From positions 1-24,156 of IMG/VR virus record IMGVR_UViG_3300025543_000210: a stretch of 24,156 nucleotides of DNA. One strand, 5' to 3'. A program made the translations under genes and the position numbers. The notes under the pieces were generated by a model. That model saw only the letters and a program-made list of their open reading frames with translations, was not told where the DNA came from and ran no database searches. Below are positions 896 to 16,237 of this stretch, piece by piece (positions within the stretch are counted from its first letter, which is position 1; each line of letters starts with the position of its first letter). This stretch comes from a virus.

Positions 896-1111
896 ATGTC
901 CGAGATATTCGTAAAAATAGTACGCGTACCAGGCGCAGTAACTGAAGTTGGCCTTGAGCAAGGCTCAACTGTTGCTGATGCATTGTCCGCAGCAGGCATT
1001 GAGCAGAACAATGCCGAGGTACTTAAAGTCGGTTCAAGCTCTGTTGACCGCAACTACACCCTAGTAGACGGCGACCGAGTCATCTACAGCATCGGAGCCA
1101 AGGGCAACTAG
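896..1111 (+). CDS. Ubiquitin-like beta-grasp protein (ThiS/MoaD type), probable conjugation modifier
   Basis: The ATG at 896 follows a strong AGGAGG at 882-887; an upstream GTG at 842 is in frame but lacks a site. The 71 residues follow the ThiS/MoaD pattern: strand 1 (IFVKIVRVPG), strand 2 and helix (GSTVADALSAAG), then a late LVDGDRVIYSI segment matching the 'DGD.V' signature of sulfur carriers and bacterial ubiquitin-like proteins. The C-terminus is ...GAKGN: a single glycine at 70 followed by Asn71 instead of a free Gly-Gly. In known pathways an E1 adenylates the exposed glycine, and a JAB protease can first trim the tail. The E1-like and JAB genes lie just downstream, which supports a modifier role over thiamine or molybdopterin sulfur transfer, as no such pathway genes are present. 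The target is unknown. Confidence 0.82.
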   Translation: MSEIFVKIVRVPGAVTEVGLEQGSTVADALSAAGIEQNNAEVLKVGSSSVDRNYTLVDGDRVIYSIGAKGN

Positions 1112-1167
1112 CAACTGCCTGACCGCACCCCATTAGACCAAACAGGCATCACTGTTCCTTAGCTCGT

Positions 1168-1193
1168 TCCCGTCCGAGTGGTCGAAGACGGGA
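1168..1193 (+). promoter_or_regulatory. Strong RNA hairpin between the Ubl gene and the rest of the cassette
   Basis: Seven outer pairs (1168-1174 with 1187-1193) and three inner pairs (1175-1177 with 1182-1184) enclose a GTGG loop, with an AA bulge at 1185-1186. No T-run follows, so it is not a standard terminator. It could protect or process the transcript and so set the ratio of modifier to enzymes. Its middle resembles the D arm of a serine or leucine tRNA, but no other tRNA arms can be drawn. Confidence 0.5.
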
Positions 1194-1226
1194 TTACTTT
1201 GCCTAACGATAGTACTGGAGGTACTA

Positions 1227-1391
1227 ATGACTAACCCAAAGCTACTTGTACTTGGTACAGAAGACGACTTTACCAAACAAGAAGTCGATTGGTTATCAGA
1301 CTTAATAATAGAAAAACTAAACGACGAAGGAGTAAGCACACAAGGTTTTTCATTTCAGATACGCGTTGAATACATACCGGAGAGAAGATAA
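1227..1391 (+). CDS. Hypothetical 54-aa protein inside the ubiquitin-like cassette
   Basis: The ATG at 1227 follows GGAGG at 1217-1221 with a five-base gap, and the stop overlaps the E1 gene's start as TAATG (1389-1393). The strong ribosome site and the coupling make it a real gene despite its length. The product begins MTNPKLLVLGTEDDF, then has a predicted amphipathic helix (EVDWLSDLIIEKLND), and ends basic (YIPERR). I recognise no family. It has no cysteine, so it cannot be a thioester-forming enzyme. Its place between modifier and E1 suggests an accessory or adaptor role, but that is inference. The ribosome site sits inside an imperfect palindrome, TAGTAC-N5-GTACTA (1210-1226). Confidence 0.72.
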   Translation: MTNPKLLVLGTEDDFTKQEVDWLSDLIIEKLNDEGVSTQGFSFQIRVEYIPERR

Positions 1392-2080
1392 TGCTATCGA
1401 CCATAAGACACGACCCAATATTTCGAGCCTATGACTACAAGGATTACCCAATCCATATTGTAGGCGCAGGTGCTACAGGCTCACGCTTGTTCATGTCACT
1501 CATCGAGTTGGGCCTGACCAACATCAGTGTGTATGACTTTGACATCGTAGAGCCACACAACCTAGCTAACCAATCATACCTACATGAGCACATAGGAATG
1601 CTCAAAGTAAACGCACTCAAAGACCTTGCAACCAAGAAGCTCGGTGTGCCTGCTGACTTAATCAAAGACATGCGCTTCATCAACGAGCGCATTGACCAAC
1701 GACAGTTCGACGGCTTCCTGTTTCTGCTTACAGACACGATGGCTAGCCGCCGCCAGATCGTTGAGGCTCAAACAACTGGTGCAGACAGCACGTTGTTACA
1801 AGTGTTCGAAACCCGCATGGCTTCAACACACGGCAACGTAGCTCACTTCTCACCAACTAACGCAGCTCAACGTAAAGCATGGTTCGACACTCTTATCAGT
1901 GACGACGAAAGCGAAGTATCAGCTTGCGGCACCAGCATATCTGTAGGCCCGACAGCCTCACTGATTGCAAACATGGCTGTGTGGGAGTTTATGAACTTCC
2001 TACTCAATGACGGCTGTGCCACTGCCCAACTCGATGTCTTCTTCAAACCAATGCTAATGACCACCAAGGAAAGAATATGA
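1391..2080 (+). CDS. E1-like activating enzyme (ThiF/MoeB fold)
   Basis: This is a 229-residue adenylating enzyme of the ThiF/E1 superfamily. In the family such enzymes use ATP to adenylate the C-terminal glycine of a ubiquitin-like protein and then form a thioester. Visible motifs are the nucleotide loop GAGATG (25-30), DFDIVEPHNLANQ (49-61), the lysine after the glycine turn (K72), TD...SR (114-120), and a candidate catalytic Cys179 in SACGTSISVGPTAS, which aligns with the ThiF cysteine position. Two deviations stand out. The arginine of the usual NLxRQ motif is Asn60, and no paired CxxC zinc motif is present, since the only other cysteine is 209. The length equals the core domain alone, with no extra domain. 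Translation is coupled to the genes on either side (TAATG upstream, ATGA overlap with the JAB gene). Confidence 0.88.
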   Translation: MLSTIRHDPIFRAYDYKDYPIHIVGAGATGSRLFMSLIELGLTNISVYDFDIVEPHNLANQSYLHEHIGMLKVNALKDLATKKLGVPADLIKDMRFINERIDQRQFDGFLFLLTDTMASRRQIVEAQTTGADSTLLQVFETRMASTHGNVAHFSPTNAAQRKAWFDTLISDDESEVSACGTSISVGPTASLIANMAVWEFMNFLLNDGCATAQLDVFFKPMLMTTKERI

Positions 2081-2862
2081 ACCGCCTACCTTATTACCCC
2101 CAAGCCAAACAAGCGTCATTTGACAGTAGCTCATTGACCCCAGTAACAACCCAACTGTATGAGTGGGACTTACCCAAAGCACCACAAGTGTATTACACAC
2201 CCCTTGTCTGGGAATCCATCCGCTACCTAGTAGACACCATTGCTACCGAAGTCGGTTGGCTCGGTCTCGTTGACATCGATGACGACGGTAACTACTTAGT
2301 CACAGAAATCTTTGTACCAAAACAAACTGTATCCGGTGTCGAGACAGACATCACACCAGAAGCTCTGGTCGACCTAGCCGTAGACCTAGAGTCCAAAGGT
2401 ATCTCATCAGAGAAACTTATCTACTGGGGGCACTCGCACGTAAACATGGGCGTTAGCCCCTCGATGCAGGACGAAGTACAAGTAGAAGAGTTCCTAGACA
2501 ACGGCTGCAAGTACTTTATCCGTGGCATCTATAACAAGCACGGCAGTTCAAAGGTTGATGTGTATGACACAGCAGAAAACTGTGTGCATCAATGCGTGCG
2601 TAATGGCGTACAGCCCACAGTACTCGACGACTTACTCAAGACCAGACTTGATGACCTAATCAAAACCAATGTCGAAAAACCCGTCGTCAAAGCATTCCCA
2701 AAATCAAAACTAGGGACTACACATAAAACCGTAGTCACTAACACAACACCTAACTCTTATTACTTAGACGGCTACGGCAGTTATATCGACGACGACGAAT
2801 ACGCCGACGACCTAGAACGTCAAGAAATACTAAACAACCCATTTGGGTTCAGGGAGCACTAA
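2077..2862 (+). CDS. JAMM/JAB-type metalloprotease (deubiquitinase-like)
   Basis: The sequence has an exact JAMM metal motif: H119-x-H121-x7-S129-x2-D132 (GHSHVNMGVSPSMQD), preceded by a likely catalytic Glu58 (TEVGWLG). Such zinc proteases cut the peptide or isopeptide bond after the glycine of ubiquitin-like proteins, either to mature the modifier or to remove it. The 261 residues are longer than a bare JAB domain. Residues 1-35 are a variable lead, and about 90 residues after 180 form a polar, acidic tail ending NNPFGFREH of unknown role. The start overlaps the E1 stop (ATGA). Beside a Ubl ending in Gly-Asn, a maturation role is plausible. A RadC-like role is unlikely, as the helix-hairpin-helix part is absent. 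Confidence 0.88.
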   Translation: MNRLPYYPQAKQASFDSSSLTPVTTQLYEWDLPKAPQVYYTPLVWESIRYLVDTIATEVGWLGLVDIDDDGNYLVTEIFVPKQTVSGVETDITPEALVDLAVDLESKGISSEKLIYWGHSHVNMGVSPSMQDEVQVEEFLDNGCKYFIRGIYNKHGSSKVDVYDTAENCVHQCVRNGVQPTVLDDLLKTRLDDLIKTNVEKPVVKAFPKSKLGTTHKTVVTNTTPNSYYLDGYGSYIDDDEYADDLERQEILNNPFGFREH

Positions 2863-2863
2863 T

Positions 2864-3808
2864 ATGTACAAAACAATCGACAAGATAACCATTGACCACA
2901 AACAAATTGCTATCGAGCAACACACCGACAGAATTTTCCTTATAAACCATGACCTGCTAACGCTAAAAAACAAAGTAACTGCCACTAAAATAAATTTAGG
3001 TAAAGCTGAACGATCATTAGCTACCGCTCGCCTAGCCGTAACTAACAACTCCAGCTGGGACTGGCTACGTGTTGCCGGTGGCTCCAAAAATCTTGCTGCG
3101 GCTATGAAACAAGAAGCAAACAATTATTTGAACTGTAGGCGAGGAGAGCGTTTTGAATACAGAGATAGCCTAACAACACTTGAACGCCGCTATGATAAAT
3201 ACCATGACGAACTTTACAACACTAAGTTTTTGCTAAAGCAAGCCTATGCATCTGAGGATACCCCAACAAACCATACAATCGCAGACTGGGAACACGAGCT
3301 GCGTAACTGTGAGCATTATGTTAAAGGCTCCATCAAATTAAAGCACCGCTATCAAGGCGGCGGGTTTCTTGACGAATGCTATGAAGAATATTACAAAGTA
3401 ACAATGCGCTTCAGCCCGATGACAGCTTGCTCATCTAACAATGATTACATTGACATAAACCCCATCTATATCCCGTCAGTCACCGCTGACTTTTTAATTG
3501 ATAAAAGACGTGCCGGTCATCACAACTACTACACTGTGCTGAGAGCTTCTCCCGGCTTTGCCAAACACCGTTACACAGGATTTGAACGCCGTAAAGTCTT
3601 GCATCCACATATGACTGATACGACTACGCCCTGCTTAGGTGACTTTCAAGGGCCAATAACTGAAGCACTTGATACCTTTGACATACCTACAGCAGTAGTA
3701 GTACTGGGTATGTTCTTACAACAATTTGATCCAGCTGATGCAGCTGGCAGATCTTACCGAAACTTCCCATTAGCAGAATCCATGTTTAACCAAGAACAAG
3801 CAGCATGA
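2864..3808 (+). CDS. E2-like protein: N-terminal helical region plus UBC-like C-terminal domain
   Basis: The ATG at 2864 has AGGGAG at 2851-2856; an in-frame TTG at 2843 is inside the JAB gene and less likely. Residues 1-165 are charged and mostly helical, probably coiled coil. Residues 200-305 resemble the ubiquitin-conjugating fold of prokaryotic E2 families. The order is a YYTVLRASPGF strand, then LHPHM (246-250), six residues, Cys257-Leu-Gly-Asp-Phe, then helices (TAVVVLGMFLQQFDPADAAG). In eukaryotic E2s the same spacing is HPN...G.ICL then W...i..lL..pnp. Cys257 would carry the thioester. The HPH variant matches what I recall of the PRTRC-B / Prok-E2 type. The operon context with Ubl, E1 and JAB agrees. 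The call rests on motif reading, so it could also be an inactive UBC-like scaffold. Confidence 0.68.
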   Translation: MYKTIDKITIDHKQIAIEQHTDRIFLINHDLLTLKNKVTATKINLGKAERSLATARLAVTNNSSWDWLRVAGGSKNLAAAMKQEANNYLNCRRGERFEYRDSLTTLERRYDKYHDELYNTKFLLKQAYASEDTPTNHTIADWEHELRNCEHYVKGSIKLKHRYQGGGFLDECYEEYYKVTMRFSPMTACSSNNDYIDINPIYIPSVTADFLIDKRRAGHHNYYTVLRASPGFAKHRYTGFERRKVLHPHMTDTTTPCLGDFQGPITEALDTFDIPTAVVVLGMFLQQFDPADAAGRSYRNFPLAESMFNQEQAA

Positions 3809-4018: not shown

Positions 4019-4303
4019 ATGTTCTTAGCTGGAATAATCGCCGCCGCCGGTATGTTGTTCTTACTGTTCAAATTCGGTGTGCGCAAAGTAATCAACTACG
4101 ACATCTTCTTTGATGTGCTGATTACATTCTTTCTTATGATCGTTCTCGCTGGCACGTTCAGCGGCATGATCGCTGCCTTATTCGGCGGCTTACTTGTGTC
4201 CGTTGTGCTGTTCATTATGAAACGCACAATGCGTCACGAAAAATTATCTTTAGTGAAAACCAAAAAATTCCCTTATAGGAGGTGGATGTGGGTGGAGCAA
4301 TAG
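4019..4303 (+). CDS. Small integral membrane protein (94 aa), three membrane segments
   Basis: Start ATG 4019 follows AGGAG at 4005-4009. Three hydrophobic segments are clear: FLAGIIAAAGMLFLLF (2-17), then roughly 29-48 and 49-66 (VLITFFLMIVLAGTF; IAALFGGLLVSVVLFIM). A basic tail follows (MKRTMRHEKLSLVKTKK), which the positive-inside rule would place in the cytoplasm. I have a general memory of similar short membrane proteins in early regions of environmental tailed phages, without a known function. It could be a superinfection or membrane-modifying protein, or holin-like, but it is far from the late lysis genes. Its end overlaps the ribosome site and start of the next gene. Confidence 0.75.
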   Translation: MFLAGIIAAAGMLFLLFKFGVRKVINYDIFFDVLITFFLMIVLAGTFSGMIAALFGGLLVSVVLFIMKRTMRHEKLSLVKTKKFPYRRWMWVEQ

Positions 4304-4767
4304 CAGAATCAACAACAGACAACGACTTCTTTTATCTATGCCCTGAGTGTGACTACGACCTTGGCGAAGACTTCTCAAACATGACCGAAGACAGTTGCCC
4401 TGAGTGCGACCACCCTATAGAAAAAGAATCACTAACCCGTGGCTCAGCTGCTCCCGCTATACGGTTGCGAGGCTTCGATGAAGACGATGATGATCACGAC
4501 GAAATGCCAGACATAGAAGACGAAGGCCAAGAAATAAGAATAGAAGGTTATGTAAGTGGGATAGAAACTTATAACTCTTTCTGTCTTCCTTACGGTTATC
4601 AATGGAGTGATGTTGAATCGTGGTCTATGTCAGGAGAGACAATATTCATTGAGTTCACCTCCGGCCTTAGTTGGAGCAATTCGTTGGTTATAGTAAATAA
4701 CGACACCGAATGCACTGGCGATTACCGTGCTATAGACGACCAATACAACGTATTAGGCGAATACTAA
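4288..4767 (+). CDS. Zinc-ribbon protein with acidic linker (159 aa)
   Basis: A strong AGGAGG at 4277-4282 sits five bases before GTG 4288; the in-frame GTG at 4282 overlaps the Shine-Dalgarno and is rejected. The N-terminus holds two CPEC motifs, at about residues 18-21 and 37-40 (LCPECDYD, SCPECDHP), a classic four-cysteine zinc ribbon. Next is a very acidic linker (DEDDDDHDEMPDIEDEGQE) and a C-terminal beta-rich domain with FIEFTSGLSWSNSLVIV. Zinc ribbons often bind nucleic acid or RNA polymerase, but the acidic character argues against simple DNA binding. No family recognised. The stop is fused to the next gene's start (TAATG). Confidence 0.7.
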   Translation: MGGAIAESTTDNDFFYLCPECDYDLGEDFSNMTEDSCPECDHPIEKESLTRGSAAPAIRLRGFDEDDDDHDEMPDIEDEGQEIRIEGYVSGIETYNSFCLPYGYQWSDVESWSMSGETIFIEFTSGLSWSNSLVIVNNDTECTGDYRAIDDQYNVLGEY

Positions 4768-14938: not shown

Positions 14939-15131
14939 AGTTTTAGAGAGTAGATATGGGCTTTTCATGACTGTTGAAGATTTAGCCGAAGTAGTTAAAT
15001 CAAACAAGCAAACAATTTACAACAAGCTATACGATGAAAGTTTAGGCATACCTCATTGGCGTATGGGAAAACGTTATCTTTTCCCGACTGAAGGTGTAGC
15101 TAACTACATTTCAGCTCAACTAGAAGCTTAA
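14931..15131 (+). CDS. Small DNA-binding protein, excisionase-like (66 aa)
   Basis: The ATG at 14931 follows AGAGGAG (14917-14923) with a seven-base gap; an earlier in-frame start at 14907 lacks a site. The product has a MerR/Xis-like winged-helix pattern: FMTVEDLAEVVKSNKQTIYNKL as the helix-turn-helix, then IPHWRMGKRYLFPTEGVANYI as wing and last helix. Such proteins bend DNA at attP to favour excision, or regulate integrase. It is convergent with the integrase gene and overlaps its end by three bases, a usual neighbourhood for xis. An AlpA-like transcription regulator is the main alternative. Confidence 0.72.
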   Translation: MIKVLESRYGLFMTVEDLAEVVKSNKQTIYNKLYDESLGIPHWRMGKRYLFPTEGVANYISAQLEA

Positions 15132-16237
15132 ATATCCTCAGCGTTTAGCTGAGTGTAGATAGACAATGTGTCCCACTTCAAGTGCCCTGATATGACAGCA
15201 ACTTCTGGCACGCTGTAGTTCTTTTCTTTGTCTTCAAAAAGACGACTTATACCCTCGTGCCTAAGATCGTGAAAAGTTAAATCTTCTTCAGTTGCTTTGC
15301 TTCTCACACCAGGAATTGGTGGTGCCCTCAATCCAGACTTGATCGCCACCCTAGCAAATCTATCTGAAATCGATTCACTCTTTTTTGGCTTCCCAAACAC
15401 ATGATTAGCCCGTTCTGGCAGTCTTGTTCTGTTGCGGGTTACCTTGCCAACCTTTTTATATTCACGTAGGAGCACCTCTCTCACGCCCTCTCGCATAGGT
15501 ATTATATCGGTCGGCCCCTTCTTATAACCCTCCCATAACCTGCTTTGTATACGCACGGTGTGCCGTTCAAAGTCTACATCGTCCCAAGTTAACCGATGAA
15601 TTTCGCCCTGCCGCATACAGGACTCAACCGCAAACTCGATCATAGGGCTTAGCCAGTTGTTCCCTGACTCAGAATTATGCTGCCTGCCTACTCCAGCCAT
15701 GAGCGTTTCCCACTCTCCTTCCCGCAGCCGCCTAGTACGACGCTTGCTACCAGCAATCATCTTCAACGACCCAAGTGCAGGCTTGGTTACCTCTACTGGA
15801 TTAGCAGCTATTGGTAACTCCCAAAACACAATTCCATAAGCAATGACTTGTTTTAGGTACGACATGTCTTTCTGTAATGTCGAAGCCCCAACAGTCTTTC
15901 GGCGGCGTTTGCCGTAGGCAAGCAAGTACTTGGGAGTTAAATCTTTAAGCGTGTCACTTTCAAACTCACGGGCCATGCGCTGTAGACTAGAGAGCTTAGA
16001 CCCTAGTACTGGGGCAGTGTCCTCTAGCTCTTTGATGTAGTTGTGGATTAAGTCTGACAGTCTATGGCTGATTACTTCTTTGTCATCGATAAACGTACCG
16101 TCGTCCATCTGCATCTCAACCTTCCTAGCCCATGCCTTAGCTGCTGACTTTGTTTTGAAGGTTTTTGTCTTACGGGCATGACCAGCTTTGTTTATGTCTG
16201 CCTGCCACTTACTGCCCTTAAGCCTTATATTTGCCAT
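15128..16237 (-). CDS. int: Tyrosine-family site-specific integrase
   Basis: The 369-residue recombinase has an N-terminal arm-binding-like domain (ANIRLKGSKWQADI...KTFKTKSAAKAWARKVE), a SAM-like core-binding region (about 55-150) and a catalytic domain. Catalytic residues are R209 (CMRQGEIHRLTW), probable K239 or K240, H323 and R326 (FHDLRHEGISRLF), H352 (SGHLKWD) and nucleophile Tyr361 (SIYTQL). It integrates and excises phage DNA at attP, found 82 bases upstream. Its GGAG ribosome site (minus strand, 16242-16245) lies inside the first of the CTCCGCC repeats, so binding there could repress its own expression. The length is normal for a P4/phage integrase. Confidence 0.95.
   Translation of the reverse strand: MANIRLKGSKWQADINKAGHARKTKTFKTKSAAKAWARKVEMQMDDGTFIDDKEVISHRLSDLIHNYIKELEDTAPVLGSKLSSLQRMAREFESDTLKDLTPKYLLAYGKRRRKTVGASTLQKDMSYLKQVIAYGIVFWELPIAANPVEVTKPALGSLKMIAGSKRRTRRLREGEWETLMAGVGRQHNSESGNNWLSPMIEFAVESCMRQGEIHRLTWDDVDFERHTVRIQSRLWEGYKKGPTDIIPMREGVREVLLREYKKVGKVTRNRTRLPERANHVFGKPKKSESISDRFARVAIKSGLRAPPIPGVRSKATEEDLTFHDLRHEGISRLFEDKEKNYSVPEVAVISGHLKWDTLSIYTQLNAEDI

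Follow-up and report, generated by a model that had tools for sequence, protein, structure and literature searches.

What would a phage do with a complete set of ubiquitin-type conjugation genes placed among its replication genes? The question is raised by IMG/VR record IMGVR_UViG_3300025543_000210, a marine phage contig of 24,156 bases that is probably incomplete and that we analysed over its whole length (the window). On the plus strand, positions 896-3808 hold four open reading frames (ORFs) for a ubiquitin-like protein (Ubl), an E1-like activating enzyme, a protease of the JAB/JAMM class and an E2-like protein, each at the position given in the original prediction, which had read them as a complete cassette. 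This analysis documents that the four genes are present and conserved together with their catalytic residues intact, and it documents the pattern of the Ubl tail, the contrast in selection and the location in a replication module. That a complete Ubl, E1, E2-like and JAB set lies in a phage replication region, and that it is neither a cyclic-oligonucleotide-based antiphage signalling system (CBASS) nor a ParB-related, ThiF-related cassette (PRTRC), is well supported. Judging from the sequences, we consider it probable that the four genes form a phage-owned, reversible Ubl-conjugation system active early in infection.

Do the four genes belong together? Scanning IMG/VR with the E1 returned 11 close loci, to which profile scans added many distant loci. 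Using hidden Markov models built from the close group, all four genes were found together in 34 IMG/VR contigs (10 close and 24 wider, with a few near-duplicates among them) and in three contigs of bacterial metagenome-assembled genomes (MAGs). Because the genes recur jointly in the 34 contigs with invariant catalytic residues, their association is not a matter of chance. The set therefore does recur in other viral contigs, as a neighbourhood search was hoped to reveal, but an identical order is not universal: Ubl-E1-JAB-E2, E2-JAB-E1-Ubl, E2-Ubl-JAB-E1 and Ubl-E2-JAB-E1 were all found, besides others. Retention of the set despite a shuffled order is expected from selection for joint function. 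When 84,980 prokaryote species genomes were scanned, only four loci emerged, all on MAG contigs; since that scan uses short peptide patterns, it is suggestive, and not proof, of a mainly viral family.

How would the pathway begin? The Ubl gene (896..1111, plus strand) encodes a 71-residue beta-grasp modifier ending in GAKGN. A profile of 19 Ubls (alignment A11) matches the solved structures of SAMP2 (E=2.1e-7), MoaD and RnfH, and 12 of the 19 family members match the ThiS model, which bears out its earlier description as a ThiS/MoaD-like protein. The Ubl is conserved in the close loci, and in A11 Gly70 is nearly invariant and aligns with the penultimate Gly of SAMP2. The tail, encoded here by the codons at 1100..1108 (plus strand), reads K-G-N or K-G-A in nearly all sequences of A11; beyond it, there is no further residue, a variable extension of up to about 23 residues or, in L056, L095 and L097/L098, a second Ubl. 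A K-G-[N/A] tail combined with variable extensions or a second Ubl is consistent with maturation by a protease, and the Ubl is most simply read as a precursor that the JAB would trim, with a cut most likely on the C-terminal side of the Gly, although a mature end at the Asn is also conceivable. In keeping with processing of the Ubl by the JAB, Xanthomonas phage PhiXhv-15 has no JAB gene in the vicinity of its E1, and its Ubl-like protein already terminates in SGG. Additional Ubl-like paralogues with divergent tails occur upstream of the main Ubl in some loci (L002:3286-3504 and 3516-3770, L003:6990-7205 and L009:7228-7617).

The protease that would perform this trimming, a JAB/JAMM metalloprotease of 261 residues (2077..2862, plus strand), was assigned through Prok-JAB, matched by 8 of 16 family members with a best E of 0.0036, and through its conserved JAMM motif. 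This motif (HSHVNMGVSPSMQD; 2431..2472, plus strand) follows the H-S-H-x7-S-x2-D pattern exactly, as had been claimed, and Glu58, His119, His121, Ser129 and Asp132 are invariant in all 41 JABs compared. No match to the JAB was found in PLSDB plasmids by tblastn. As a first step, the JAB would remove the residue or residues beyond the conserved Lys-Gly of the Ubl, and as a last one the same enzyme could take the Ubl off its target again.

Once exposed, the Ubl C-terminus would be adenylated by the E1 and held as a thioester on Cys179. The E1 gene (1391..2080, plus strand) encodes a ThiF-family adenylating enzyme of 229 residues with a single ThiF match (PF00899, E=1.4e-18), so that its assignment as E1-like holds; identity across the 11 close loci is 79-99%. 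Ten residues are invariant in 40 of 40 non-identical E1s, namely G25, G27, D49, D51, N57, Q61, K72, D115, R120 and C179. The last is the candidate thioester cysteine (codon 1925..1927, plus strand, in CGTSISVGPTA; family context CGTSxSVGxTA); it is kept also in the Xanthomonas, Flavobacterium and crAss-like phage E1s compared and stands at a position that we take to be that of ThiF Cys184 and MOCS3 Cys239. The protein thus combines the ATP-site residues with the candidate thioester cysteine of an activating enzyme. Its best NCBIfam match is a ThiS-adenylyltransferase model, far under the cut-off. A match to Rfam sR32 inside the E1 gene fell under the gathering score and was judged to be due to chance.

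Could the Ubl instead be a plain sulfur carrier of the ThiS/MoaD/Urm1 kind, from which the E1 makes a thiocarboxylate for a cofactor or tRNA, the E2-like protein and the JAB being otherwise employed? The resemblance of the Ubl to ThiS, MoaD and SAMP2, the ThiF-like E1 and the tRNA-Cys gene at 303-376 would agree with such a role. However, among the window proteins searched, nothing was recognised as a sulfurtransferase, a rhodanese or a cofactor enzyme, the Ubl lacks a terminal Gly-Gly, and it is retained as one unit with a JAMM protease that is intact and a dedicated E2-like protein whose Cys is invariant, so that we regard a pure sulfur-carrier role as very improbable.

From the E1, the Ubl would pass to Cys257 of the fourth protein (314 residues; 2864..3808, plus strand; alignments A1, A5 and A8), which consists of an N-terminal coiled coil (2864..3253, plus strand) and a C-terminal E2-like domain (3254..3805, plus strand) with HPH at 3602-3610 and the candidate catalytic Cys257 at 3632-3634. 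HPH and Cys had been predicted with six residues between them; the motif is there, but the spacing is seven (HPHMTDTTTPC), the same as in the eukaryotic HPN-x7-C, and its H, P, H, C and G are invariant in 25 sequences (A5). Comparison by hhalign of the E2-like profile with eukaryotic E2s, a set of three sequences, gave a score of 29.3 (P=4e-4), whereas none of 60 column shuffles exceeded 18.0, the reversed profile reached 12.8 and unrelated families stayed under 12; HPH...C was aligned with HPN...C, together with the subsequent D-P-x-D. The HPH/Cys motif is also where the profile aligns, more weakly (P=0.003), with cyanobacterial PRTRC_B-like E2s. The whole-protein model (predicted local distance difference test, pLDDT, 85) has two long helices at residues 12-60 and 75-129, and the model of the domain (pLDDT 89, predicted template modelling score 0.86) is ordered as helix, strands, HPH/Cys loop and two helices.

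Structure prediction returned a strand-loop-helix order, but not a PDB match to an E2: Foldseek found no significant match for the E2 domain alone and no E2 among the best listed, and with the whole model coiled coils dominate the matches and no E2 is listed. Pfam gave no match for any of the E2-like members, and a tblastn search of INPHARED with the E2-like protein gave none. Is the fourth protein then not an E2, the Ubl-E1-JAB trio merely adjoining an unrelated coiled-coil protein? The failure of both Pfam and Foldseek to match an E2 speaks for this possibility, whereas the exact E2 spacing of HPH-x7-C, a profile score above shuffles and unrelated-family controls, the predicted order of elements and the consistent co-occurrence with E1, JAB and Ubl speak against it, and we find it quite improbable. 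Motif, profile and synteny, rather than a fold match, make the protein very probably a divergent E2. Variants of this gene were also noted. In L092:4563-5924, the catalytic Cys has been lost (PHVELSGYPVAG) from a second E2-like gene that stands beside an intact copy, recalling inactive ubiquitin E2 variants (UEV), and L056 and L098 carry two E2-like genes as well. The E2-like protein of a Xanthomonas jumbo phage (L105:3247-5925) reaches 892 residues with a dense Cys-rich end, possibly a zinc or E3-like domain, and in L002:6043-6994 the gene is divided between two overlapping frames by a frameshift or a sequencing error.

What would the Ubl be attached to? Between the window and L001, the ratio of non-synonymous to synonymous substitution rates (dN/dS) rises from 0.06 for E1 through 0.14 (JAB), 0.27 (Ubl) and 0.28 (E2 domain) to 0.95 for the E2 coil, and against more distant members of the close group the coil keeps 17-24% identity where E1 keeps 80-86%. 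This fast divergence of the coil, compared with the constrained E1, makes it the likely target-recognition part. In the conjugation pathway proposed here, the coiled coil would select the partner and the Ubl would be attached early in infection to a target that is most probably a host factor, or else a replication-associated protein.

The enzyme classes involved are deployed against phages by Bil (bacterial ISG15-like) and CBASS (PMC11354881, PMC10097602), and this, like the fast evolution of the coil, would also suit a counter-defence role, in which the set drains or reverses a host immunity of the Bil or CBASS type, the JAB stripping conjugates or the Ubl serving as a decoy. Yet a decoy or deconjugator needs no E1 and E2 of its own with invariant catalytic cysteines, and no host system was identified; we consider this role unlikely. 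Modification of the phage's own replication proteins or virion parts, regulating replication or assembly, deserves more attention, since the cassette adjoins polymerase, primase and other replication genes in several unrelated phages and conservation is strong in E1 as in the replication genes. Indeed, the genes 3' of the cassette in the window include DNA polymerase A, primase-helicase, exonuclease and helicase; repressor and integrase genes come next, and the opposite strand carries tail-fibre and internal virion genes. This combination of replication genes with repressor and integrase identifies the region as an early-type replication module belonging to a temperate phage, and its gene content suggests expression early in infection; promoter matches were rarer than in shuffled sequence. 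Such a location, which recurs in unrelated phages and is distant from structural genes, disfavours particle modification as the main role, and no structural gene adjoins the cassette in the window. A fast-evolving coil is also less expected for a fixed internal partner. Self-modification is thus a tentative possibility, within which tagging of replication proteins stands as the main alternative to a host target, virion modification, like pure sulfur carriage, being less likely.

Several other points, besides the missing fold and family matches of the fourth protein, weigh against a conjugation system. The Ubl has no diglycine, its last Gly position being Asn or Ala in most relatives, and the JAB matches Prok-JAB weakly. 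The dN/dS near 1 of the coil, which comes from one sequence pair, may reflect relaxed constraint and not an arms race.

Does the cassette belong to a described system? Bil, a bacterial anti-phage defence, likewise has four genes, for Ubl, E2, JAB and E1, with reversible conjugation and a JAB that processes the Ubl, but its BilA contains two Ubl domains, its BilB a Cys-Glu-His-His (CEHH) motif and its BilD a two-domain E1 (PMC11354881). In the window, by contrast, the Ubl is a single 71-residue domain (tandem Ubls occur only in some distant relatives), the 229-residue E1 has one domain instead of an inactive and an active adenylation domain, and Cys257 is followed by LGDFQGPITEALDTFDIPTA, with no His within 20 residues and HPH before the Cys. 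With the two-domain Ubl, the CEHH motif and the two-domain E1 all absent, we rejected membership in Bil. The phage Ubl-like domain and JAB of lambda and T1 (TAPI-TAPK) act in tail assembly (PMC1779556); those are tail genes with NlpC/P60 and without E1 or E2, whereas the cassette has both and lies in a replication module.

Closer in layout are PRTRC and type 6d of Iyer, in which Ubl, E1, E2-like protein and JAB are likewise encoded separately on a mobile replicon, with E2s whose PNVxxxGxxCWG is shared with HPHVxxxGxxCWG of the phages. The 6d operon, however, has a helical fifth protein and an E2 without the classical His before the Cys (PMC1779556), whereas the phage run has no such fifth protein and its E2-like protein has HPH. 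The phage set also has no ParB, and the JAB profiles align without significance. Only PRTRC_ThiF among the NCBIfam PRTRC models was matched (27.6 against a cut-off of 144.75 bits), and as the A, B, C and ThiF models all failed, membership in PRTRC was rejected. A PRTRC_C search of 98 genomes of one phylum gave no match anywhere and is hence uninformative; a Prok-E2_B search of three genomes gave no match.

Type II CBASS (Cap2-Cap3), 6A-MBL and Bub share the E1, E2 and JAB chemistry, and the phage E1 domain scores against their models. In these systems the E1 and an E2 or JAB usually form one fused protein, which is accompanied by a cyclase, a metallo-beta-lactamase (MBL) or another partner, whereas the phage has separate E1 and E2 genes and a free Ubl. 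The predicted absence of a cyclase was confirmed, no nucleotide cyclase being matched among the searched window proteins, and with no Cap2-type E1-E2 fusion either, membership in type II CBASS was rejected. The archaeal SAMP2-HvJAMM1-UbaA set offers the closest structural relatives of the Ubl together with an E1 and a JAMM protease, but it is cellular, presumably works without an E2, and its Ubl ends in Gly-Gly. In layout, the cassette thus comes nearest to the 6d/PRTRC operons of mobile elements, whose genes are also separate, but it has E2 and JAB families of its own, and we found no description of the cassette in phages in the open-licence papers searched.

How far does such a system extend? 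Neighbours of the cassette include DNA polymerase, primase-helicase, SNF2 helicase, Rad50/SMC-like ATPase and uracil-DNA glycosylase or exonuclease genes. Among 50,697 phage records, divergent E1s were found in Flavobacterium phages, crAss-like phages, Xanthomonas and Erwinia jumbo phages and gut phage MT835544. In the crAss-like and Flavobacterium phages, a JAB and an E2-like protein precede the E1; each of the two, used as query, returned 74 records with the same organism breakdown (29 Bacteroides phages, 29 Flavobacterium phages and others). The E2-like proteins of this branch share an invariant HSH...C-x-G and are matched by the phage E2 profile (P=2e-4); the JABs gave a match as well (P=4e-6). 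A Ubl is presumed in this branch; a crAss-like candidate was rejected as a homologue (profile P=0.37). In Bacteroides phages DAC15 and PhiCrAssBcn1, the E2-JAB-E1 set comes after the primase, and cultured phages with relatives include DAC15 (B. thetaiotaomicron), PhiCrAssBcn (B. intestinalis), Flavobacterium Fpv3 and Xanthomonas PhiXhv-15. In the crAss-like and Flavobacterium phages, the cassette genes are annotated as 'hypothetical' or 'thiamine biosynthesis'.

Bacterial Ubl conjugation is known mainly as a defence against phage. We put forward, as a proposal for which the balance is even, that unrelated tailed phages (marine temperate, crAss-like gut, Flavobacterium and jumbo) harbour in their replication modules a widespread unnamed class of virus-encoded, self-sufficient Ubl/E1/E2/deubiquitinase systems that covalently reprogram host or replication proteins early in infection. 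If so, viruses would employ this chemistry offensively or for replication, the genes of abundant gut phages that bear the above labels would be accounted for, and an E2 family beyond current models, relevant to the evolution of the ubiquitin system, would be at hand.

As to the surroundings of the cassette, the tight run of genes described in the original prediction exists from a 54-residue ORF (1227..1391, plus strand) through the E2 onward, with overlaps or 1-nt junctions, but does not include the Ubl gene, which is set apart from E1 by about 115 nt plus that ORF. Within the run, this ORF extends over the E1 start, the E1 gene shares 4 nt with the JAB gene, 1 nt separates the latter from the E2 gene, and the E2 gene in turn runs into the small ORF after it. 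Homologues of the 54-residue ORF (63-100% identity) occur in L001, L002, L010 and L011, and other small ORFs replace it elsewhere. Two genes between the cassette and the polymerase gene were followed by tblastn over the loci. The first encodes a hydrophobic, membrane-like protein of 94 residues (4019..4303, plus strand), which shows 77-97% conservation next to the cassette in the DNA-polymerase-linked clade and is a possible partner of it. The second encodes a fast-evolving zinc-ribbon-like protein (4282..4767, plus strand) whose two CxxC pairs keep all four Cys invariant in 13 of 13 homologues; more speculatively, it is a candidate E3-like zinc adaptor. Reverse transcriptase-like genes adjoin the E2-JAB-E1 set in gut phages (L059:7361-8512, matching Pfam RVT_1, and L013:6682-8019, recognised by eye). 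The tRNA-Cys (GCA) gene is phage-encoded and lies upstream of the cassette, and the segment 16300-16345 (gcggagagaatccctctctctccgcca), beside the integrase gene (15128-16237), resembles the 3' end of a tRNA gene and is a possible attachment site.

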